DNA of 64,000 bases, taken from contig CALXHR010000001.1 of assembly GCA_944388175.1 (NCBI GenBank), positions 62,001 through 126,000 on the forward strand, written 5' to 3'. Under the pieces are notes generated by a model that saw only the letters and a program-made list of their open reading frames with translations, was not told the origin of the DNA and did not search any database. Shown here one piece after another: positions 30,169 through 42,529 of the stretch; position 1 is the first letter of the stretch; the number at the start of each line of letters is the position of its first letter. Source of the stretch: an uncultured Gemmiger sp. (lineage in GTDB: Bacteria; Bacillota; Clostridia; Oscillospirales; Ruminococcaceae). The position numbers were made by a program, and so were the translations under genes.

Positions 30169-31560
30169 ATGCAAACGACCGAACAACTCAAAGCACTCTT
30201 GTACAAAAATGAGACCGTGGCCGACACCGCGCCCGAAGCGCTGGCGGCCGCGCAGGAATTCTGCGAGGGTTACAAAACCTTTTTGGACAACGCCAAGACC
30301 GAGCGCGAAGCGACCGCCTACAGCGAGAAACTGTTGCTGGATGCCGGGTACCGCGCCTTTGTGCCGGGCCAGAAACTGGAACCCGGCGCCAAAGTGTACG
30401 CCATCAACCGCCGCAAGTGCGTGCTGGCCGCGACCATTGGCACCAAGCCGCTGGAGGAAGGGTTCCACCTCAATATCGCGCATATCGATTCGCCCCGGCT
30501 GGACCTGCGCCCGGTGCCGGTGTTTGAAAAAGAGGGCCTTGGCTACCTGCGCACCCACTATTACGGCGGCGTGCGCAAATACCAGTGGCCGACCATCCCG
30601 CTGGCGCTGCACGGCGTGATCTGCCGCGCCGACGGCAGCAAGGTGGAGGTATGCATTGGCGAGAACGAAAACGACCCGGTGTTTTGCATCACCGACCTGC
30701 TGCCGCACCTGGGCGCCAAGCAGAACGAAAAGAAACTGTCGGAGGGCATCACGGCGGAGGACCTCAACGTTCTGATTGCTTCGCAGCCCATTGCCGACAA
30801 GGACGCCGAAAAGCGCATCAAGCTCAACATTTTGGGCATGCTGCACGAAGCCTACGGCATCACTGAGCGTGATTTCACCCGTGCCGAGATCGAGGTCGTG
30901 CCCGCGTTCAAGGCGCGGGATATCGGCCTGGACCGCGCCATGATCGGCGCGTACGGCCACGACGACCGCGTCGACGCTTACCCGGCGCTGATGGCGGAAA
31001 TCGGCGTGCAGGCCCCGGCCTACACCACGGTCTGTGTGCTGACGGATAAAGAGGAAACGGGTTCTGACGGCGTGACCGGGCTCAACAGCATGTATACCTT
31101 CCACTTCCTGCAGCAGCTGTGCGCGGCGCAGGGGGCCGATTACATCACGGCCTGCAAGGCAGCCAAATGCCTTTCGGCCGACGTGACCGCTGCCTACGAC
31201 CCCACGTTTGCCGACGCTTTTGAGCCGGACAACGCCACCTACGCCGGCCGCGGCGTGGCGATTTACAAGTACACGGGTTCGCGCGGCAAATCCGGTACCA
31301 ACGACGCGCCGGCCGAGCTCGTGAGCTACCTGACCCGCCTGATGGACCGCAATGGCGTGGTGTGGCAGATTGGCGAGATGGGCAAGCTGGACCTTGGCGG
31401 CGGCGGTACCGTTGCCAAGTATGTCGCCAACCAGGACATCGACACCATCGATATCGGCGTGCCGGTGCTCTCGATGCACGCGCCGTTTGAGGTTGTCTCC
31501 AAGGCGGATGTGTACATGGCGTACCGCACGTTCAAAGCATTCTGCGAGGATGCAGAGTAA
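30169..31560 (+). CDS. M18 family aminopeptidase
   Basis: A 463-residue cytoplasmic zinc aminopeptidase of the aspartyl/aminopeptidase I family. Metal ligands appear in NIAHIDSPRLDLRP (His and Asp region near residue 105), TDKEETGSDGVTG (about 294–306) and the C-terminal PVLSMHAPFEV. Length and order of motifs fit. The ATG has GGAAAGGAAG upstream. It is followed by a terminator at 31576. A role in peptide turnover is the family expectation. Confidence 0.92.
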   Translation: MQTTEQLKALLYKNETVADTAPEALAAAQEFCEGYKTFLDNAKTEREATAYSEKLLLDAGYRAFVPGQKLEPGAKVYAINRRKCVLAATIGTKPLEEGFHLNIAHIDSPRLDLRPVPVFEKEGLGYLRTHYYGGVRKYQWPTIPLALHGVICRADGSKVEVCIGENENDPVFCITDLLPHLGAKQNEKKLSEGITAEDLNVLIASQPIADKDAEKRIKLNILGMLHEAYGITERDFTRAEIEVVPAFKARDIGLDRAMIGAYGHDDRVDAYPALMAEIGVQAPAYTTVCVLTDKEETGSDGVTGLNSMYTFHFLQQLCAAQGADYITACKAAKCLSADVTAAYDPTFADAFEPDNATYAGRGVAIYKYTGSRGKSGTNDAPAELVSYLTRLMDRNGVVWQIGEMGKLDLGGGGTVAKYVANQDIDTIDIGVPVLSMHAPFEVVSKADVYMAYRTFKAFCEDAE

Positions 31561-31575
31561 GATACATAAAACCGA

Positions 31576-31616
31576 CCGCAGCGCGGACCCCGGTAGGGGC
31601 CCGCGCTGCGGCGTTT
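31576..31616 (+). terminator. Terminator of the DUF951–aminopeptidase operon
   Basis: A perfect 11-bp stem (CCGCAGCGCGG / CCGCGCTGCGG) followed by CGTTTT lies 16 bases after the aminopeptidase. Confidence 0.85.
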
Positions 31617-31670
31617 TGCTGCTTTATTTTGGCTGTGCACAGTGCACCGGGGAAGCAAAAGACAAAAGAA

Positions 31671-31700
31671 AAAAGACCGTTCCTTGCGAAACGGTCTTTT
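31671..31700 (-). terminator. Terminator of the tRNA-Ala gene
   Basis: An 11-bp stem (AAAAGACCGTT / AACGGTCTTTT) followed on the minus strand by a T-run lies directly after the tRNA. Confidence 0.85.
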
Positions 31701-31702
31701 TG

Positions 31703-31778
<76 letters not shown>

Positions 31779-31816
31779 ACGGGTACGTCCGGGCAATATC
31801 CCTGACGACGCTAGCT

Positions 31817-31845
31817 ATTATAGCAAAGCGTTCCCGGCTTGTCAA
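31817..31845 (-). promoter_or_regulatory. Promoter of tRNA-Ala
   Basis: On the minus strand a perfect TTGACA (31845–31840), a 17-base spacer and a perfect TATAAT (31822–31817). Confidence 0.9.
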
Positions 31846-31959
31846 GCTGTTTTTTTACAGGTTTTGCGCAAGGCAAAGGGACACCGCAGGACGCCTGCGG
31901 CCAAACCGCGGCCAACGGGCATAGTATGGCAGGGATACCACAAAAAAGGGGGGCTGCCT

Positions 31960-32591
31960 GTGCGCCGCAAACAAACGGCAGGCCGCCGGCGGTTGCCGCT
32001 GCGCCTGTACGCCGCCGCGCTGGCGGCTGCCGCCACAGCCGCGATGCTGTGGTTCAACGCCTATGTCAACACCGAGATCAAACCGGAACTGCAACAACTG
32101 GCCGAGTATTATGCCTGTGCCGCAACGCTGGAAACCATGCACCGCGCCGTGCAGCAGACGCTGCAGGAACAGACGGCGCTGCGTGAAACGCTGTACCGGG
32201 GCGAAACCGACTGCCTGCAGCTGGATGCGGCGTCAGCCAACCGCCTGCGCAGCGCGTTGATCGCAGAGATCGAAACGCAGATCGCCCTGCTGCCGCAGCA
32301 GGAATACAGCATCCCGTTTGGCAGCCTGACCGGCAATTCACTGCTCAGCGGCTGGGGGCCGGGGTGGGCCATAACGCTGCAGCCGCAAGGGTATGTGCAG
32401 GCGGAATGGGAGGAAACGACGGAATCGCTTTCCATCAATACCACACGCGTCAGCGCCGCGCTGGTATTGACAGTGACGGTAAACATGATTTTGGACGGGC
32501 GCACCGAGACGTTGACGGTCCGCGATACGGTACCCCTGGCCAGCGTGCTGCTGCGTGGGGACACGCCGCAAGTCTATGCGGCGGCGCTGGA

Positions 32592-32595
<4 letters not shown>
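31960..32595 (+). CDS. yunB: Sporulation protein YunB
   Basis: A 211-residue protein with one N-terminal transmembrane segment (about residues 14–33, then FNAYVNTEIKPELQQLAEYYA) and a beta-rich extracytoplasmic domain with FGSLTGNSLLSGWGPG and LTVTVNMILDGRTET. These are the YunB family features; in Bacillus it is a sigma-E gene needed for efficient sporulation. The GTG at 31960 follows AAGGGGGG eight bases upstream; earlier in-frame codons lie close to the tRNA promoter and are rejected. It precedes ligA. Confidence 0.82.
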
Positions 32596-34645
<2,050 letters not shown>

Positions 34646-34785
34646 CCCTCAAACAGACTCGCTGCCAGGGGAACGTTGTGTAAGCTGTACAATCTGAGCG
34701 TCAAGGTCACCGCCGTTTCGCTCATAAAATGGCAGCGGCACCGCACCCGGCTTTGTTGTGCGGGCGATGCGAACCTGCGACAATG

Positions 34786-34830
34786 CAAAAAAGAGAGCCT
34801 GCGGATAAAAATCCATCGGCTCTCTTTTTG
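34786..34830. terminator. Bidirectional terminator between ligA and the ribbon-helix-helix gene
   Basis: A 7-bp stem (GAGAGCC / GGCTCTC) with an inner GGAT/ATCC pairing, an A-run before and TTTTT after it. Confidence 0.8.
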
Positions 34831-34837
34831 TTATATT

Positions 34838-35020
34838 CTATTTTTCGTCTTTGAGTTCCATGTGGTCCAGCGCATACCGCAAGGCCATGCTGATCAGTTC
34901 ATTTCGGGAACGGTTGGTCTTGGCGGCCAGGTCATTGTATTCTTCCTGCAAGGTTCTGTCTATACGTATCGTCATGGTGACGGTTTTATCTTCTTTTGGT
35001 GTCACGATAAATTTATCCAT
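34838..35020 (-). CDS. Small ribbon-helix-helix (CopG/Arc-like) DNA-binding protein
   Basis: A 60-residue protein with a strand (VTMTIRIDRTL, about residues 14–24) followed by two helices (QEEYNDLAAKT and SRNELISMALRYAL), the fold of CopG/MetJ/Arc repressors. GGGGGCT precedes the ATG. No toxin gene is adjacent. It is divergent from the four-gene acyl-transfer operon across 325 bases and is the only regulator nearby, so control of that operon is plausible but unproven. Confidence 0.8.
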   Translation of the reverse strand: MDKFIVTPKEDKTVTMTIRIDRTLQEEYNDLAAKTNRSRNELISMALRYALDHMELKDEK

Positions 35021-35345
35021 AATGCAGCCCCCTTTGTATCAGTTTCAATTCCATTATAGGGTTGACGCAATGCGCAAAACTATATCACAATAAGAGTTAT
35101 AAAAGCACTGTACATTTGTGTTACAATCTGCTATAATGCGGTTGTCGACGATTTCGCCGGGGAGCATAGGGGCGTCAGGCAAGGGCAGAAAGGCTGCAGA
35201 AAGCCTGTTGTGCAAGGCGTTGCCGGCGGCCGGGGCGAGCGATATAAAGCTTGCATTAAAATTTGCACTACTATAATAATATTAGCGATGTTGTTTCGAC
35301 GGAATCAGACGGATTTCTACTTCAAAGCTACGGGAAGGGACCAAA
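35021..35345. other. Intergenic control region and 5' leader of the acyl-transfer operon
   Basis: No gene is seen in these 325 bases. A plus-strand promoter (TGTACA-17-TATAAT, 35109–35137) would give a leader of about 200 bases containing a nested hairpin: CAGGC/GCCTG (35176–35180 with 35203–35207) around GCAG/CTGC. A second AT-rich stretch near 35251–35277 (TTGCAT, 15 bases, TATAAT) could be an alternative promoter with a poor spacer. Confidence 0.5.
35109..35137 (+). promoter_or_regulatory. Candidate promoter of the acyl-transfer operon
   Basis: TGTACA, a 17-base spacer and a perfect TATAAT, about 210 bases before the first gene. Confidence 0.6.
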
Positions 35346-37490
35346 ATGGCAGGATCGAAAAATAGAAAGGGCATGGGCTGTTTTGTAAAGTCTTTCCTGG
35401 CAGTTTTGATTGCGGCGGCAATTTACATGGGTTGCTATGTATTGTTTTCGCCCGTATGGTTGGAGTGGAATAATTATAATACAGTCCACGGATTTTACAA
35501 AGAGCCGGAAAATACGATCGAAACGCTGTTTTTGGGGTCCAGCCATGTGGTCAACGGGATCACCCCAACAGAGCTTTACCGCGACTATGGCCTTTGCGCG
35601 TATAACTTGGGCACAGAGCAGCAGGGGGTGAATGTCTCGTACTATTGGCTGCGCGAGGCGTATCGCTTGCACGCGGAAAGCCTGACGACGGTGGTGTTCG
35701 ATGTATCGATGCTGCGCCGCACGGCGAGCGAAACCTTTGTCCAAAAAGGGATCGCAGGCATGCGGCTGTTTCCGGGCAGAGTGCAGGCGATGTATGATTA
35801 CTATCTTGGCCCGTATGGCACAGGGGACCTGCAGGACGTATTGGAGCAGCTGAACCCGGTCACGGCCTATCACACCCGGTGGAACCAGCTCACCCGGCAG
35901 GATTTTGAGAAATTCCATCTGCAGCCGACGCTATATAGCCGGGGGTATCATTTTGTTTCCTATTCGCTGCTTGACGAGGGAAATGCCGAAGAGGACTACG
36001 AAGAGGAAAACGCCCCCTACCTGGAAAGCGTCCTGGACGAAAGCGTGCCGGGGGAGGAGCTGCAGGACTCTGAACTCTACTATTTTGATAAGATCGTTGC
36101 ATTTTGCAAAGAGAACGACCTCGACCTGGTTTTGGTCAAAATACCGGCAAGGGGCTGGGGATCCAACCGCCATAACGCGGTGCAGGCCCTCGCCGAGAAA
36201 AACGACCTGCCTTTTTTGGATTACAATTTTCCGGTATCCGGCCAAAATTTGGTGGGGGAAACGTATCTTGTGGACAGTCATGACGGAAATCATCTGAATT
36301 ATTTTGGCGCCACAAAGGTGACGCATGCAATCGGAGACTATCTGGTCAAGAACTGCCGCGTGACCGATGTGCGCGGGCAGCAAAACTATGCGTTTATGGA
36401 GCAGGAACTGGCCGACTACAACAAAAATGTCGTTGTGTGCAGCGAGCTGTATCTGGCGACGGAGCTGGAACAGTACCTCACCCTGGCGGCCCAAAACGAA
36501 AACTATGTGATATTCCTGCCCGGAAAAGATGAAACGTCCGGCGCACTGCATGAGCCGCTGCGCGCGGCGCTCGCTGATCTCGGGTTCACAAAACTCGCCC
36601 AAATCGGTTGGCGGGATTCCTATGTGGGGGTTTTGGACAAGGACGGCGTCCAGGAGGTTCTTGAGAAGGCGGACACCCAAAAGGAAGCAATGTTGGAAGG
36701 CGCGATGCAAAACGGGGTGCGCTACAGCGTTGTGGGCGCGGGATGGAGTTCCGAGAATTTCTCTTCCTGCAGTATCGACGAGACGGAGTACTCCCCGAAT
36801 CTGCGCGGGCTGAACATCGTGGTGTATGACCAGAGCACAGACACCGTGGTCGACGTAACGAACTTTGACACCCTGAACACGACCGAGCGAATGAGCGGAT
36901 ACCCCTTACAAGAAATAGAGACGATGGAAGCGGAAGGGAAAACGTATCAGGACCTTACAGAAAACGCCCAAAAACTGTACCGGTACATGCACCATGTAGA
37001 GAACCAAGAAATTGCAGGCGCTTTGCAGGGGCATGGCGGCCGGCAAGAACTGGTGACGTGGCTGGATGCGTACCGGCAAAAGGACCGGGTGATCCTGCTG
37101 GCGGCCCAGGGGGATGCGGCGGACCGTTTGTCGGAACCGGTGCGGGAAGCGCTTGCGCAGCGCGGGCTTACCCAACTGGCGGAACTGCAGCCGGGGGAAA
37201 CCTACTTTGCCGTGATCGAGAAAGATCAGAAACCGTATGAACAGACGGAAGGCGATGGAACCCCGCTCCCGCTGGAAGATGCGATTTTCCGCATGATCCA
37301 CGCTGAGCCGGGCGCGGGTGATGCCATAGAGCCGGCCGGGCTGCAATTGATTGTGTACGACCGGATCGAGGAAGCAATTGTCGCCCAAACATCCTTTGAA
37401 ACGTTCGAGGACCCCCTTGCCGTGGCGGAGCGGGAAATGCGCAACGAGTTTCAAACCATTTTTCTGACGCCCAAAGGGAAAATGCTGTGA
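35346..37490 (+). CDS. Membrane-anchored SGNH-like (DltD/AlgJ-type) protein with two ILEI/FAM3-like modules
   Basis: A 714-residue exported protein. One transmembrane segment (about 12–34) precedes an SGNH-hydrolase-like domain: LFLGSSHVVNG (61–71) supplies the nucleophile Ser and DGNHLN (313–318) the Asp/His pair, as in DltD and AlgJ/AlgX partners of MBOAT enzymes. The C-terminal half holds repeated segments that resemble the eukaryotic ILEI/FAM3 domain: YVIFLPGKDETSGALHE...WRDSYVGV (387–429), LRGLNIVVYDQSTDTVVD (486–503), a second VILLAAQGD...ETYFAV (582–623) and a second LQLIVYD (666–672). It starts the operon with MBOAT 18 bases downstream. The acylated polymer is unknown. Confidence 0.75.
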   Translation: MAGSKNRKGMGCFVKSFLAVLIAAAIYMGCYVLFSPVWLEWNNYNTVHGFYKEPENTIETLFLGSSHVVNGITPTELYRDYGLCAYNLGTEQQGVNVSYYWLREAYRLHAESLTTVVFDVSMLRRTASETFVQKGIAGMRLFPGRVQAMYDYYLGPYGTGDLQDVLEQLNPVTAYHTRWNQLTRQDFEKFHLQPTLYSRGYHFVSYSLLDEGNAEEDYEEENAPYLESVLDESVPGEELQDSELYYFDKIVAFCKENDLDLVLVKIPARGWGSNRHNAVQALAEKNDLPFLDYNFPVSGQNLVGETYLVDSHDGNHLNYFGATKVTHAIGDYLVKNCRVTDVRGQQNYAFMEQELADYNKNVVVCSELYLATELEQYLTLAAQNENYVIFLPGKDETSGALHEPLRAALADLGFTKLAQIGWRDSYVGVLDKDGVQEVLEKADTQKEAMLEGAMQNGVRYSVVGAGWSSENFSSCSIDETEYSPNLRGLNIVVYDQSTDTVVDVTNFDTLNTTERMSGYPLQEIETMEAEGKTYQDLTENAQKLYRYMHHVENQEIAGALQGHGGRQELVTWLDAYRQKDRVILLAAQGDAADRLSEPVREALAQRGLTQLAELQPGETYFAVIEKDQKPYEQTEGDGTPLPLEDAIFRMIHAEPGAGDAIEPAGLQLIVYDRIEEAIVAQTSFETFEDPLAVAEREMRNEFQTIFLTPKGKML

Positions 37491-37508
37491 CCCGCCGGGG
37501 AGGAACCG

Positions 37509-39044
37509 ATGGCTTTTACAGAGTTATCCTTTTTTGTTTTTGCGGCCTGCTTGGTGCTGTTCTACTATTTGCTGCCGGCGAAGATGCAGTGGATCGTTTT
37601 GCTGACCGGCAGTGTGATCTTTTATGTTTCTTACGGGGCCGAAAAGCTCCCGTTCCTTCTGGCGGCGGCCGGGATCGCATGGTGGGCTGCGCTGCGGATG
37701 GAAAAAATCCGGCCTGACGGCCCGGAAAGCCGTGCGCTTGCGCGCAAAAAGCAAAAGAAAGTTTTGCTGGGTGCCGGGGCACTGCTTGTGCTGTTGCTCC
37801 TGTACGCCAAGGTCGGCACATGGGTCATACAGTCTTTTGCCGCGCTGCTGCGCCTGGATGCGGATTCGGTGCCGCAGGCAATTCTGGCGTTGGGGGTTTC
37901 TTATTATACATTCTCCATGCTGGGATATCTGGCGGATGTATATTACGGAAAAGAAAAGGCCGAAACAAACTTTCTGCGCTTTCTCCTATTCGCAATTTAT
38001 TTCCCCAAGATTTTGCAGGGGCCGATTTCCCGGCATAAATTCCTGGCGCCGCAACTCAAGGAAACACATCGCTTTTGCTATGAAGCATTTTGTTTTGGCT
38101 TCCAGCTTATGTTGTGGGGATATTTCAAAAAGCTGGTGATCGCGGACCGTCTGGCCATGCTGGTCAACTATGTTTTTGACAATGTGGAAACCCAGACGGG
38201 GGCGCATTTGCTGATGGCGGCCTGTTTTTCGGCCGTGCAGCTGTACTGTGATTTTTCCGGCTGTATGGATATTGCCGGCGGCTTCTCCCAGATTCTGGGC
38301 TTAAAGCTGGAACCGAACTTTAACCACCCGTTCTTTTCGCGCTCGGCGGCAGAGTTTTGGCGGCGGTGGCATATCACGTTGGGAACCTGGTTCAAAGACT
38401 ATGTGTATATGCCGCTGGCGATCTCGCCCCGGGTGATCCGCATCAGCAAAAAAGTGCGCGAAACGTGTGGCGCCCGGGCGGGCAAAGCGGTCATGACGGT
38501 CCTGCCGTTGTCGGTTGTGTGGGTCCTGACGGGGCTTTGGCACAGCACCGAGTGGAATTATGTGGTGTGGGGCGTGTATTGGGGCACCCTGATTATCTGC
38601 GCCAATGTATTTGCACCGGAGCTGAAAAAGCTGACCGGGTTCCTGCACATCAACACAAAAACCGAAAGCTGGAAAATCTTCCAGATGGTGCGGACCTTTT
38701 TCCTGTTCGTGGTTGGCCGCATCCTGACCGTCCCGGGCACATTGCACGGTTCGGCGGAAGTTTTCAAAAAGATTTTTTTCGATTTTCAACCCGGAAGCCT
38801 GTTTGACGGCTCGGTCTATTCTTTGGAGCTGGACCGCGCAAACTTTCACCTGGCGCTGGTGTGCATTTTTGTGCTGTGGGCCGTCAGCATGCTGCAAGAG
38901 AAAAAGCCGGTCCGTCAGCGTCTGGCGGAAAGCAATGTCGTTTTCCGCTGGGCGGCATGGTATGCGCTGCTTTTCTCGATCGTGATTTTTGGGGTCTACG
39001 GGCCCGAGTTCAGCGCGGCCGCTTTTGTGTACATGAATTTCTAA
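37509..39044 (+). CDS. MBOAT family membrane O-acyltransferase (AlgI/DltB type)
   Basis: A 511-residue polytopic membrane enzyme expected to pass an acyl group from a carrier protein across the membrane. The conserved block SAAEFWRRWHITLGTWFKDYVYMPL (about residues 279–302) and the catalytic His in LTGLWHSTEWNYVVWG (His346) are intact. Its operon partners are an SGNH protein upstream and an acyl carrier protein downstream, which mirrors DltB between DltD and DltC. GGGGAGGAA precedes the ATG. The acyl group is unlikely to be plain D-alanine given the unusual ligase. Confidence 0.92.
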   Translation: MAFTELSFFVFAACLVLFYYLLPAKMQWIVLLTGSVIFYVSYGAEKLPFLLAAAGIAWWAALRMEKIRPDGPESRALARKKQKKVLLGAGALLVLLLLYAKVGTWVIQSFAALLRLDADSVPQAILALGVSYYTFSMLGYLADVYYGKEKAETNFLRFLLFAIYFPKILQGPISRHKFLAPQLKETHRFCYEAFCFGFQLMLWGYFKKLVIADRLAMLVNYVFDNVETQTGAHLLMAACFSAVQLYCDFSGCMDIAGGFSQILGLKLEPNFNHPFFSRSAAEFWRRWHITLGTWFKDYVYMPLAISPRVIRISKKVRETCGARAGKAVMTVLPLSVVWVLTGLWHSTEWNYVVWGVYWGTLIICANVFAPELKKLTGFLHINTKTESWKIFQMVRTFFLFVVGRILTVPGTLHGSAEVFKKIFFDFQPGSLFDGSVYSLELDRANFHLALVCIFVLWAVSMLQEKKPVRQRLAESNVVFRWAAWYALLFSIVIFGVYGPEFSAAAFVYMNF

Positions 39045-39108
39045 ACAGGCGGTCCCTGCAAATGGATCCCCAGGATAGCGATATCCATAAAACAGGAGGT
39101 AAAATAGT

Positions 39109-39339
39109 ATGGAAGAAAAAGTGTTGGCGTTGCTTACGTCGGAGTTCCCGGACATTGATTTTACGGCTTCGGACGCCCTGGTCGACGACGGCATCCTGGA
39201 TTCGCTGACGATCACCGGCATCATTGCCGCCCTTTCGATGGAGTTCAACATCACGATCCCGTATGAGGAGATCATTGAAGAAAACTTCAATTCGGTGGCC
39301 GGGCTGGCCCGTATGGTGCAAAAGCTGAGCAATGTGTAA
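39109..39339 (+). CDS. Acyl carrier protein (DltC-like)
   Basis: A 76-residue four-helix carrier protein. The phosphopantetheine attachment Ser lies in LVDDGILDSLTITG (Ser42). It resembles DltC-type carriers in length and in having DSL followed by T rather than M. AGGAGG lies upstream. It sits between the MBOAT and AMP-ligase genes, overlapping neither; the ligase starts 13 bases after its stop. It probably receives the acyl group from the ligase and presents it to MBOAT. Confidence 0.92.
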   Translation: MEEKVLALLTSEFPDIDFTASDALVDDGILDSLTITGIIAALSMEFNITIPYEEIIEENFNSVAGLARMVQKLSNV

Positions 39340-39352
39340 AGAAGAGGACCAC

Positions 39353-41386
39353 ATGTACGAAACACTTGTAAACCGCGTCAGTGCGCTGGCTGCGCAGCAC
39401 CCGGACAAACTGGCGGTTGCGTTCAAAAAAGAAACCCTTACCTACGCGGAACTCAAGGACCGCATGGTTCGGATCGGACGCCGGTTGGCAGCGCTGGGCG
39501 TAAAGAACGGGGACCGCGTGCTGCTCAGTGCAACCTCCAAACCCGAGATGGTGGCGGCGTACCTGGGCATCCAGTACGCGGGCGGCGTTGTTGTTTTCGT
39601 TGATAAAAACGCCACGCAAGACAACGCACTGTTTATTTATCAGGACACCGACGCAGTCCTTTTTCTGACGGATAAGCCGATGAAACAGCATGACGGCCTG
39701 TGCCGCGTCCATTCCCTGCGCGCAATTTTCCAGGAGGGCGCTGAGGGGGAACTTTCGTATGTGCTGCCAAAGGGGGACGCGTTGGCGGAACTTCTGTATA
39801 CCTCGGGCACGACCGGCACGCCCAAAGGGGTCATGCTGACCTACAACGCGGTTTATCATATCTGGATGAACACCATTGAAGGGATCGGGATTCAGGAAAC
39901 CGACCGGATTCTGCTTCCGCTGCCGCTGAACCATTCGTTTGCGCTGCGCGTACTGCGCGCGTATCTCTACCAGGGCGCGTCCGTCGTCCTGCAAAACGGG
40001 TTTACGTTCGCCAAGGAAATTGAGAACAACCTGCTGGCCTACCAGTGCACGGCCATTGCCATTGTTCCGGCTTCGGTAGAAACGGTAGAAAGGCAGATGC
40101 AGGACCGCTTTGCCGAAATCATGGGGCGTTTCCGTTACATTGAGGTCGGGGCGGGCTCGCTGACGGTAGAACAGCGCAAACGGTTGACGGCACAGCTGCC
40201 CCATACCACCCTTTACAACACGTGGGGTTCCTCGGAATCCGGCGGGGCGCTGTTCTGCAATGTGACGGAAGTGGCCGCCGACCCGGTCAAGATCGCGGCG
40301 GTGGGCAAACCGCTTCCCTGTGTGGAAGTGCGGGCCCTTGATGCGCAGGGCGAACCCCAGGCAAGCGACCGTGAGCACCCGGGCCGCATGGCGATCAAAG
40401 GCGAGATGGAAATGTCCGGGTATTGGAACCGACCGGAACTGACGGCCGAAACGTTACAAGATGGGTGGCTCATCACCAGCGATATGGTATATCTGGACGA
40501 AACCGGCTATGTGTATATGCTGGGGCGTGCCGATGATATCATCAATGTCGGCGGCGAGAAGGTCTCGCCGGTTGAAGTGGAAAATATCGCCGGGGAATAC
40601 GAACATATCAAGGAGTGCGCCTGCATCGGCGTGCCGGACCCGGATAACGTGCTGGGCTCGGTCCCGGTCCTGTTTGTCGTCCCCAAAGATAACGCTTACG
40701 CACCGGAAGATATGGCGCGCTATTTGTCCCAGCGGATGGAGCGGTATAAATTGCCGGCGCGCTATATCCCGCTGCTGGCTTTGCCGCGAAACCGCATGAA
40801 AAAGCTGGACCGGAAAGCCCTGCGCCTTTTGTGGGAGCAGCAGGGCGGCGATTCGCTGATGAACGAGACCGTGCGCACAATTTTGACGCGGCGCAGCATC
40901 CGCAAGTTTGCGGATAAGCCGATCCCCAAAGAAATCCTGGAAATGCTGGTGATGTGCGGCTACTATGCGCCATCCGGCCATAACATGCAGACCTGGAAGT
41001 TTACCGTCATCACCAGAGCGGAGGAAATCCAGCGCCTTAAAGAAGCCGCCCGCCAGACCGCGAAGGAAAATAAAGTCTATTTCTATGGCTTTGAGAACCC
41101 GGCGGCCCTGATTCTGGTTTCCAACGACGCCCGGAATGCCAATGGTTGCCAGGACGCATCCTGCGCCAGCGAAAACATTATGCTGGCGGCCTGGTCGTAC
41201 GGGATCGGTTCCACCTGGCTGAATCCGCTGATGCCCCTGCGCGGCAAAGAGCCGGTCAAATCCGTCCTGGATTCGTATAACATCCCGGAAAAACATACCA
41301 TCTGGAGCATGATTTCCCTCGGCTACCCGGTCGGGGAGGGCGTGCTCTTGCAGAAAAAGAGCGAGGTCGTGCAGTGGATTGAGTGA
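39353..41386 (+). CDS. Acyl/aminoacyl-AMP ligase fused to a nitroreductase-family domain
   Basis: A 677-residue fusion. Residues 1–500 form an ANL adenylating enzyme: A3 motif LLYTSGTTGTPKGV (147–160), A5 NTWGSSESG (289–297), A7/A8 with GRADDIINVGGEKVSPVEVE (391–410) and the catalytic Lys484 in MKKLDRKAL. Residues 505–670 form an FMN nitroreductase fold (ILTRRSIRKFADKPIPKEIL, YAPSGHNMQTWKF, ASCASENIMLAA, ISLGYPVGE). The ligase would load the adjacent carrier protein; the flavin domain could oxidise the tethered acyl group. The ATG at 39353 follows AGAGGA. It closes the operon. The substrate cannot be read. Confidence 0.9.
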   Translation: MYETLVNRVSALAAQHPDKLAVAFKKETLTYAELKDRMVRIGRRLAALGVKNGDRVLLSATSKPEMVAAYLGIQYAGGVVVFVDKNATQDNALFIYQDTDAVLFLTDKPMKQHDGLCRVHSLRAIFQEGAEGELSYVLPKGDALAELLYTSGTTGTPKGVMLTYNAVYHIWMNTIEGIGIQETDRILLPLPLNHSFALRVLRAYLYQGASVVLQNGFTFAKEIENNLLAYQCTAIAIVPASVETVERQMQDRFAEIMGRFRYIEVGAGSLTVEQRKRLTAQLPHTTLYNTWGSSESGGALFCNVTEVAADPVKIAAVGKPLPCVEVRALDAQGEPQASDREHPGRMAIKGEMEMSGYWNRPELTAETLQDGWLITSDMVYLDETGYVYMLGRADDIINVGGEKVSPVEVENIAGEYEHIKECACIGVPDPDNVLGSVPVLFVVPKDNAYAPEDMARYLSQRMERYKLPARYIPLLALPRNRMKKLDRKALRLLWEQQGGDSLMNETVRTILTRRSIRKFADKPIPKEILEMLVMCGYYAPSGHNMQTWKFTVITRAEEIQRLKEAARQTAKENKVYFYGFENPAALILVSNDARNANGCQDASCASENIMLAAWSYGIGSTWLNPLMPLRGKEPVKSVLDSYNIPEKHTIWSMISLGYPVGEGVLLQKKSEVVQWIE

Positions 41387-41402
41387 CTGCCGGGCAAAGG
41401 CA

Positions 41403-41435
41403 GCCGCTTTGGTGGAAATGGTAGACAGGCATTGG
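41403..41435 (+). pseudogene. Possible 5' fragment of a tRNA-Leu gene
   Basis: GCCGCTTTGGTGGAAATGG followed by TAGACAGGC resembles the acceptor and D-arm of bacterial leucine tRNAs (which read G...TGGTGGAATTGGTAGACACG). The anticodon arm, variable arm and 3' half are missing; a strong terminator follows 22 bases later. It may be the scar of an insertion or rearrangement next to the acyl-transfer operon. Confidence 0.5.
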
Positions 41436-41456
41436 AAAAGTGACAATCTACAATAG

Positions 41457-41496
41457 GCACCAGCCGCCGGTTTTTACCGGCGGCTGGTGCTGTTTT
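41457..41496 (+). terminator. Terminator after the acyl-transfer operon
   Basis: A perfect 14-bp stem (GCACCAGCCGCCGG / CCGGCGGCTGGTGC) with a six-base loop followed by TGTTTT. Confidence 0.92.
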
Positions 41497-41608
41497 ATGC
41501 GCCAAAACGGCGGGCGAGTGCGTGCAGGGAAGTTCCGCATGATGGCACAGGCAAAACGGCCGCCCGGCCTTGCAGGGGCGTTTCCGGTTCTAGGACAGGC
41601 CGCCCGCA

Positions 41609-41616
41609 CATACAGT
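41609..41616 (+). promoter_or_regulatory. Candidate sigma-E -10 element of the spoIIIA operon
   Basis: CATACAGT matches the sigma-E -10 consensus (CATACAnT) and lies 23 bases before spoIIIAA, which is sigma-E controlled in Bacillus. The -35 region is not convincing, so this is tentative. Confidence 0.4.
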
Positions 41617-41638
41617 GCAGTGTGAGGTGAGGACAACC

Positions 41639-42529
41639 ATGGACGAATACTACCGCGCTGCGGCCGCCTTGCCGCAGCCCCTGGCCGGGGAACTGGGAAA
41701 ACTGCCGCCACGGTATGCGGCCTATGTGCAGGAAATCCGCCTGCGCCTGGGGCAGCCGGTGCTGTTTACCGTGCAGGGCAGGCTGACGCCCTGCAGCAAA
41801 TTTCTGCCGGGGGTACGGCGGGCCGGGCATATCGACAACGCCTGCCTGCAGGAATGCTTTTTGCATTTGTGCCGCCATTCCGTCTATGCCTATGAAGAAG
41901 AATTGCGCCAGGGCTTTTTTACCATAGAAGGAGGAAACCGCGTCGGTGTGGCCGGCAACTGGGGTGGGAACGGATTTTCGGCCGTGACGTCGCTGAACCT
42001 GCGCGTGGCGCGCTGGGTGACCTGTGAATTGCCGCAGCAGGTGCAGCGCTATCTTGCCGAGACGGCCGGCAGCCTGCTGGTAGCCGGGGTGCCAGGCAGT
42101 GGAAAGACAACGTTCTTGCGCACCCTAGTACAGCATTTGAGCCAGAAAGACGCGGTCGTCTGCGTGGTGGACGAGCGCGGCGAACTGATGGCGGGCGAAA
42201 GCGGCAGCGCGCCTTTGCCGGGCAGGATGCGGTGCGATGTGTACACGCGCTGCCCCAAAGCCGAGGGCATCGAAATGGCGCTGCGCTGCATGAACCCGGC
42301 GTTTATCGTCTGCGACGAACTGGGCACCGCGCAGGACGCCGCCGCGGTGGAGCGCGGGCTGGTTTCCGGCGTGCGGTTTCTGGCTTCGGTACACTGCGAT
42401 TCCCCGCAGGCGCTGCGGCAGAAACCGTTCCTGCAAAATCTTTTGCACGTTGGCGCTTTCCGGCAGGCGGTATTTCTGGATGGGCGCGAAAAGCCGGGGA
42501 CGGTTGCAGAATGGGCGGCGCTGGCATGA
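41639..42529 (+). CDS. spoIIIAA: Stage III sporulation protein AA (secretion-type ATPase)
   Basis: A 296-residue cytoplasmic ATPase of the SpoIIIA–SpoIIQ channel between mother cell and forespore. Walker A is GVPGSGKTTFLRTL (about 148–161) and the Walker B region is CVVDERGEL. It is the first of eight genes in the standard order AA–AH. The ATG at 41639 follows GAGGTGAGG; the eight upstream codons are discarded. The stop overlaps spoIIIAB (ATGA). Confidence 0.96.
   Translation: MDEYYRAAAALPQPLAGELGKLPPRYAAYVQEIRLRLGQPVLFTVQGRLTPCSKFLPGVRRAGHIDNACLQECFLHLCRHSVYAYEEELRQGFFTIEGGNRVGVAGNWGGNGFSAVTSLNLRVARWVTCELPQQVQRYLAETAGSLLVAGVPGSGKTTFLRTLVQHLSQKDAVVCVVDERGELMAGESGSAPLPGRMRCDVYTRCPKAEGIEMALRCMNPAFIVCDELGTAQDAAAVERGLVSGVRFLASVHCDSPQALRQKPFLQNLLHVGAFRQAVFLDGREKPGTVAEWAALA

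Follow-up and report, generated by a model that had tools for sequence, protein, structure and literature searches.

An operon with an AMP-ligase–nitroreductase fusion in an uncultured Gemmiger sp. and its possible role in surface acylation

In a 64,000-nucleotide stretch of DNA from an uncultured Gemmiger sp. (contig CALXHR010000001.1; hereafter the window), four consecutive genes on the forward strand (35346..41386) encode an SGNH-type protein, an MBOAT acyltransferase, an acyl carrier protein and an AMP-forming ligase, and the ligase runs on in frame into a flavin mononucleotide (FMN) nitroreductase-type (NTR) domain. The locus raises the question of what a flavin domain does on an enzyme expected to load a carrier, and which group the operon would place on the cell surface. 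We suggest, with a probability of a little under 0.6, that the operon carries out carrier-fed surface acylation through its MBOAT and SGNH proteins, and that the group is a carboxylic acid, not an alpha-amino acid, whose redox state is tailored by the NTR domain. The observations behind this proposal are the gene content, the integrity of the domains, the conservation of key residues and the recurrence of the fused ligase together with a carrier and an MBOAT.

The four same-strand open reading frames (ORFs), called like all others here with a simple longest-ORF script, lie at 35346-37490, 37509-39044, 39109-39339 and 39332-41386, in the order SGNH-MBOAT-ACP-ligase. The last opens at 39332, overlapping the carrier gene, and a second ATG at 39353 is preceded by AGAGGA; since several homologues begin at the second position and AGAGGA precedes it, the ligase probably starts there and has 677 rather than 684 residues. 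Three Pfam domains share this frame (39353..41386): the ligase core with the pocket-mapped residues S202, R206 and E271 (PF00501 AMP-binding, residues 20-365, 39389..40426; 221 bits, cut-off 29.9), the ligase C-terminal domain with its catalytic-type Lys491 (PF13193 AMP-binding_C, residues 415-491, 40574..40804; 47.7 bits, cut-off 24.5) and the NTR domain (PF00881 Nitroreductase, residues 517-665, 40880..41326; 93.9 bits, cut-off 23.5). The NTR domain thus begins past the end of a complete ligase at residue 491, and no peptidyl carrier protein (PCP) domain was matched in the protein. We aligned 21 distinct fused proteins, from this operon and from 20 further loci (L008-L014, L034-L043 and L101-L103). 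Lys491, presumably catalytic, is conserved in all 21, and the NTR domain, assumed in the original prediction to bind FMN, retains R520, S522, R524 and N551, which we take to be FMN contacts, in every one. The predicted fusion is therefore genuine, with three domains in one frame and 20 further full-length examples. A fusion confined to this genome, or produced by assembly, was considered and is ruled out by the 540-kb contig and the 20 other loci.

The MBOAT (511 aa, 37509..39044; PF03062, 49.7 bits, cut-off 27) keeps H288 and H345 in 17 of 18 aligned rows, the remaining row (L040) being a 79-aa fragment. It ends in FVYMNF (39024..39041), which matches the FxYxxF-type acyl-shuttle motif given in PMC12148441; in the parts of that paper on which we draw, the tyrosine of this motif is acylated in PatA, and in Dlt systems the motif is located on a separate protein, DltX. 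An FxYxx[FY] sequence ends 25 of the 25 intact MBOATs of fused and unfused loci, 22 of them with the exact FxYxxF and three (L011, L036, L045) with a final tyrosine instead of phenylalanine; the copy in L040 is truncated where its contig stops. Judged by this motif, the MBOAT is PatA-like rather than DltB-like.

The remaining two genes complete the set. The carrier (76 aa, 39109..39339; PF00550 PP-binding, 26.6 bits, cut-off 20.8) has Ser32 in a DSL motif, and D31 and S32 are found in 16 of 16 rows. Gene 1 (714 aa, 35346..37490) matches no SGNH or GDSL family in Pfam or NCBIfam; we assign it to the SGNH-type extracytoplasmic acyltransferases because 14-15 of the 15 rows keep its GxS ... DxxDxxHxN residues (G64, S66, D310, D313, H316 and N318) and because of its DltD/PatB-like place in the operon. 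Its C-terminal half matches ILEI (interleukin-like EMT inducer; PF15711, 57 bits, cut-off 27), as do four others of the 15 SGNH proteins scanned, and we would guess that the ILEI stretches hold glycan. The predicted Dlt-like logic of ligase, carrier, MBOAT and SGNH protein thus stands, with the SGNH member recognised by conserved residues only.

How, then, does the operon relate to the Dlt pathway (DltX, A, B, C, D)? Both group a ligase, a carrier, an MBOAT and an SGNH protein in one operon, and a carrier-bound thioester, known as the donor in Dlt from what we have of PMC12148441, may by analogy be the donor here. In contrast to Dlt, however, the ligase here has an NTR domain and no Asp at the amino-acid position, the gene order is SGNH-MBOAT-ACP-ligase, and the shuttle motif sits on the MBOAT and not on DltX, although no search for a DltX-size ORF was made. 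The Dlt models all stay under their cut-offs: DltA (TIGR01734) scores 131.6 of 559.85 bits, DltB (TIGR04091) 150.5 of 375 and DltC 26.4 of 68. Because these models fall short and the MBOAT bears its own FxYxxF-type motif, we conclude that this is not a Dlt operon. The PatA/PatB-type systems (PatAB, AlgIJFX, WssHIFG, CcsHI) share with it the MBOAT histidine, the C-terminal FxYxxF and an SGNH partner, but differ in that the operons described here include ligase and carrier genes, the carrier's donor role being assumed by analogy. Indeed, MBOAT/SGNH pathways other than Dlt are described, in the portion of PMC12148441 available to us, as having no carrier protein, being fed by CoA and bearing the shuttle on the MBOAT. 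Since they combine a carrier gene with an MBOAT that bears the shuttle motif, the operons resemble a cross between the Dlt and PatA types, to which a redox domain has been added. In other words, the original Dlt-type picture was right about the four-gene logic but missed the MBOAT's own shuttle motif.

The ligase pocket bears on the nature of the substrate. All 21 fused proteins fit the signature S-[FLVY]-R-[AV]-E-[GS]-[TS]-G-[AVC]-K, and Ser202, Arg206 and Glu271 are each invariant among them. Opposite Ser202, the two linear gramicidin synthase A adenylation domains and a beta-aminoacyl-ACP synthetase have an Asp, so that by alignment Ser replaces Asp, in 21 of 21 fused ligases, at what we take to be the amino-group-binding position; the meaning of the other specificity positions is likewise presumed. 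The ligase substrate is probably a carboxylic acid other than an alpha-amino acid. The aminoacyl group of the original prediction accordingly finds no support, and a standard D-alanine (D-Ala) code is not present. Arg206 extends beyond the fused set: of 30 aligned ligases 28 have it, and the two that do not, L105 and L106, are divergent ones near which no MBOAT was found.

Among solved structures, the chain nearest to the NTR domain is 3ek3 (E 3.4e-26), and most other matches are named only nitroreductase or putative reductase. Matches to BluB-like proteins, iodotyrosine deiodinase and albonoursin synthase were weaker and partial (for albonoursin synthase 8uc3, 1.7e-6 over residues 8-69 of the NTR query), and none of the 39 matching solved sequences bears the name of a thiazoline oxidase. 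According to the sections of PMC11055893 consulted, those cyclodipeptide oxidases of the superfamily that have been characterised depend on O2, and acceptors other than O2 may serve their homologues in anaerobes. Because the hosts are presumed anaerobes, we consider reduction at least as likely as oxidation, and the oxidation originally proposed is not borne out.

The fusion recurs outside this genome. A search of genome contigs yielded 7 fusion loci from 25 candidate stretches, six in Lachnospiraceae and one in Eubacterium. Sample searches scored 2-4 candidates per genome, so that their counts are lower bounds. The family of G065, sampled with 397 genomes, gave at 1e-120 at least 15 matches (12 full-length fusions and three ligases without the NTR domain), and a largely identical set of 397 genomes for the family of G064 gave at least 17 (12 full-length, five ligase-only). 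In 344 genomes from the order of G735, an unfused profile at 1e-110 found at least nine matches, three of which proved fused. Samples of the host's own class (391 genomes) and phylum (348), both at 1e-120, returned its own genome as the single match in each, and most of the 20 further fused loci come from the Lachnospiraceae searches. An MBOAT is present at 19 of the 21 fused loci, and so is a carrier ORF; the latter was not found at L037 or at L043, where carrier domains are held by neighbouring synthases. All four genes occur together at 14 of 21 (this operon, L008, L009, L011-L013, L034-L036, L038-L040, L042 and L101), with altered order or intervening genes in L009, L011, L034-L036 and L038-L040; at L041 the SGNH protein is of the DHHW/AlgX type. 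The four-gene association is thus not peculiar to this genome, a point on which the original prediction had left itself open.

Put together by analogy with Dlt and PatA, the acyl group would pass from ligase to carrier, to the MBOAT tyrosine, to the SGNH protein and on to a glycan chain. The ligase would adenylate a carboxylic acid and load it on the carrier; the acid perhaps has a second anionic group, which Arg206 would bind. The fused FMN domain, probably dimeric, would change the redox state of the acyl group before or while it is on the carrier, by oxidation or reduction, for example at its alpha,beta bond. We regard action of the NTR domain on the carrier-bound acyl group as the most economical reading, since the fusion is conserved with its cofactor residues intact. 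The MBOAT would take the acyl group from the carrier by way of its His345 site to the tyrosine of its own FVYMNF, in the manner of PatA; from there the SGNH protein would pass it to a surface glycan, possibly, at a guess, one held by ILEI. A bolder form of the proposal, which we advance tentatively and hold to be doubtful on balance, is that these operons represent a third type of MBOAT/SGNH system, with a Dlt-like carrier, a PatA-like built-in tyrosine shuttle and flavin tailoring on the carrier, making an unsaturated or unusual, probably anionic ester; the ligase-NTR part would then be a portable cassette, used also in the peptide/polyketide cluster at L043.

Several observations weigh against our proposal. 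Pocket positions were mapped by sequence alignment alone. The ligase-NTR protein is used at L043 and L014, where no MBOAT was found. At L043:5833-18001 it lies within a nonribosomal peptide synthetase/polyketide synthase (NRPS/PKS) cluster with condensation (C), adenylation (A), ketoreductase (KR), ketosynthase (KS) and B12-radical-SAM domains, and at L014 the fusion and a carrier are accompanied by a DUF4910 protein and by a protein whose N-acetyltransferase match is very weak (19 of 210 bits). An SGNH protein was not detected at L010, L014, L043, L102 and L103, which counts against the proposal for L010, L102 and L103, and at L037 the match is weak (15.7 bits). Among 12 fused loci with one or more neighbours scanned, the neighbours being picked by eye, five showed no glycan or wall-polymer gene, and no polymer gene was found among those adjacent to the operon studied here. 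Two ligases inside the fused group, L044 and L045, have no NTR domain, so that the domain can be dispensed with, and L044 does so while keeping a fused-type pocket (SLRVEGTGVK). Finally, among solved structures the pocket stretch is closest, weakly (26.7 bits), to 4-coumarate:CoA ligases (4CL), which would favour an aryl acid.

The relatives of the fused ligase bear on what the substrate might be. In the ligase tree, the 21 fused proteins and unfused L044 and L045 form one group (support 100/100), in which L010 and L036 are the rows nearest to this operon's ligase. The most plausible history is that the NTR domain was gained once and lost twice (three changes), although the root is insecure and L045 has a long branch. 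Outside this group, five unfused MBOAT operons (L046, L089, L090, L100, L104) share the four gene types, Arg206 and the FxYxxF end, but have no NTR domain and other pocket residues, with types SHRDQGF, SMRTQGI and ANRCEAN against S[FLVY]R[AV]E[GS][TS] in the fused set. An importer lies in or beside all five, relatives that the original picture had missed. It is of DASS type within the L089 operon and adjoining the ligase in L046 (CitMHS above its Pfam cut-off), of SSF type between carrier and ligase in L104, and an SsuA/NMT1-type ABC system in L090, adjacent to the MBOAT gene, and in L100, where it separates the ligase gene from the SGNH gene. The unfused importer operons thus seem to scavenge their acyl precursor. 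DASS, SSF and SsuA probes found no such importer at the 20 other fused loci or in window positions 25000-52000; the ATPase probe alone matched other ABC proteins in L036, L043 (65.7 bits) and L102. The contrast of five of five unfused against none of 21 fused has a nominal p of 1.5e-5, uncorrected for kinship and drawn from three importer types chosen after being seen. An SsuA-type importer also accompanies L105, which is unfused and without an MBOAT, and the probes found none at L106, L044 or L045.

These importers, together with Arg206, favour an anionic acid, and the best placed of the alternatives narrows our proposal in that direction. The substrate would be a C4-C6 dicarboxylate or a similar acid, for instance succinate, with Arg206 holding the carboxylate, the NTR domain interconverting saturated and unsaturated forms, and an anionic ester on the glycan as the product; we think this rather unlikely in so specific a form. 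It is consistent with the wide retention of Arg206, with the DASS symporters of two unfused operons and the SsuA-type or SSF importers of the other three, and with the Lys that occupies the Arg206-equivalent position in Glu-activating adenylation domains. The importers, however, are confined to the unfused relatives, whose pocket signatures differ, and Arg206 may pair with Glu271 instead. SSF and SsuA-type importers are moreover not specific for dicarboxylates, and the DASS (158-170 against 198.6), SSF and SsuA matches are all under their NCBIfam cut-offs.

A different objection is that the NTR domain may leave the acyl group untouched, and serve instead as a structural element for dimerisation or as an enzyme of detoxification unrelated to the pathway. 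Proteins of the nitro-FMN reductase superfamily are typically dimers or pseudodimers, as stated in the text seen of PMC8795117, and the absence of the domain from L044 and L045, with the fused-type pocket of L044, agrees with a dispensable role. L045 speaks the other way: it lacks the NTR domain and keeps the operon, and its pocket has changed to TLREEGNGTK. The two cases are thus divided, L045 fitting action on the acyl group and L044 not. The FMN-type residues kept in every fused protein also count against a purely structural part, and we judge this explanation unlikely. At L010:10081-10650, an extra free NTR protein comes directly after the fusion; it shares about 53% identity with the fused domain and has RKDIF in place of RRSxR; it is perhaps a non-catalytic dimer partner.

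Less probable again is a hydroxyaryl or arylpropanoid acid, also a narrower form of our proposal, with the NTR domain acting on the propenoyl/propanoyl bond. It draws on the 4CL resemblance, in which a Lys and an Asn, at what we presume to be pocket positions of 4CL, stand opposite Glu271 and Arg206; the similarity is weak, however, and the scanned neighbours included no aromatic-acid genes. An ordinary Dlt-type operon, adding D-Ala or another amino acid with the NTR domain as mere decoration, is very improbable: the four-part logic is identical and carrier, MBOAT and ligase match the Dlt models at low score, but on those scores and the pocket signature we reject a D-Ala or canonical Dlt identity, Ser stands for Asp throughout, and the shuttle motif is on the MBOAT.

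Nitro-FMN reductases tied to adenylation enzymes are known from the NRPS oxidase (Ox) domains and the stand-alone BmdC. In what we have of PMC8795117, Ox domains lie inside the adenylation domain (EpoB; between A8 and A9 in indigoidine synthetase) or after the PCP (BlmIII), whereas here the domain follows the ligase. The AlbA-type cyclodipeptide oxidases are likewise alpha,beta-dehydrogenases of nitroreductase fold, but as far as the extracts of PMC11055893 go their substrates are cyclic dipeptides, they work together with a partner, CDOB, and they have no ligase fusion. Among open-licence PMC texts, at the level of titles and abstracts, neither a ligase-nitroreductase fusion with an MBOAT nor an MBOAT that is fed by a carrier and bears the shuttle itself was described. 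By the sections of PMC12148441 that we draw on, carrier feeding belongs to Dlt and the MBOAT-borne shuttle to the other pathways, whereas the operons described here have features of both and a redox domain besides. With the ligase-NTR protein and its carrier, the substrate and the direction of the redox step could be tested directly in vitro, and the importer-bearing sister operons offer a second handle on the substrate. If our proposal is true, the operons would make an undescribed chemical decoration on the surface of Lachnospiraceae and their kin, which are largely gut bacteria.

The neighbours of fused loci give some indication of the acceptor. Glycan or wall-polymer genes stand beside seven of the 12 scanned loci. 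At L012:1-3737 these are a CDP-glycerol glycerophosphotransferase and a phosphoenolpyruvate mutase-cytidylyltransferase fusion near the operon. Glycosyltransferases flank L008, L036 and L103, an ABC-2 export pair L102, and an IspD-type cytidylyltransferase with an epimerase L039; at L101 an IspD-type protein stands alone and is ambiguous. The remaining scanned loci are L043 (NRPS/PKS), L014, L038 (a TPP enzyme), and L010 and L011, where no family was found. At the level of ORFs, L013 resembles L012, with similar ones in the same order. The L012/L013 neighbours may point to a polymer bearing phosphonate or glycerophosphate. The L043 cluster proteins have the make-up C-A-KR-T, KS-T and A-T (T, thiolation), with an adjoining B12-binding radical-SAM protein.

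In its own genome (assembly 1.75 Mb, 69% complete; neighbouring genes throughout come from draft genomes), the operon lies between ligA upstream (823.6 bits, cut-off 369) and a spoIIIAA-like gene downstream (TIGR02858, 174.8 bits, below the cut-off of 281.3, over 261/304 residues), which suggests that the host is a spore-former. LigA is present in 33 of 37 genomes searched. In eight of 19 same-genus ligA loci (L055-L060, L062 and L063 in the set L054-L072) ligA and the spoIIIAA-like gene are 54-146 bp apart, against about 7 kb here. Spacing is about 0.4 kb in L067 and about 1 kb in L064, and spoIIIAA-like DNA was not seen after ligA in the other nine, within the flank available (short in L072). 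Given this near adjacency in eight of the 19 loci, the operon was probably acquired. Its GC content is lower than that of the window (55.3% against 60.4%), and at 1e-60 no ligase match was found in 60 relatives (34 of the same genus) besides the host's own genome, which fits acquisition by transfer. The locus is, however, variable within the genus, no mobile element was found, and a search for insertion-marking repeats gave merely short imperfect pairs. The nearest sibling by LigA (97%), L054 (L083, G019), has no spoIIIAA-like DNA in its flank and alaS about 2 kb on.

Plasmids, phages and viral contigs were also searched for ligase-NTR fusions. In plasmids, 3048 records matched, 48 of them with one place covering 80% of the query. 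Two of the 48 were examined as candidate ligase-NTR fusions and rejected, Embleya H1 being an NRPS stretch without an NTR match and Rhizorhabdus H4 an acyl-CoA synthetase gene with a separate hypothetical gene. Among phage records one reached such coverage. None of the plasmid or phage matches attained 60% identity, and viral contigs gave a single partial match at 36%.

Consensus matches to control sites flank the four-gene unit: a promoter-like site at 35109..35137 (TGTACA-17-TATAAT, with TG ahead of the second hexamer) and a terminator-like stem of 16 pairs with a 4-nt loop at 41456..41491, both on the forward strand. Across the region the scan returned nine promoter-like sites (4.3 in shuffles) and 16 terminator-like sites (9.6 in shuffles); of these 16, the stem at 41456-41491 has the most pairs. 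In 31500-41700 the sole RNA element found was a tRNA at 31706-31778.

A second match to the DltA model TIGR01734 was absent at 1e-3 from this 69% complete genome, and probes made from the operon's ligase and carrier found no canonical dlt operon in stretches of 11-12 kb around its five other MBOAT genes (L084-L088). The C-termini of those five are FLYANF (L084), ALYANF (L085), FLYARY (L086), FIYFQF (L087) and GMYAGF (L088), two of them exact FxYxxF.

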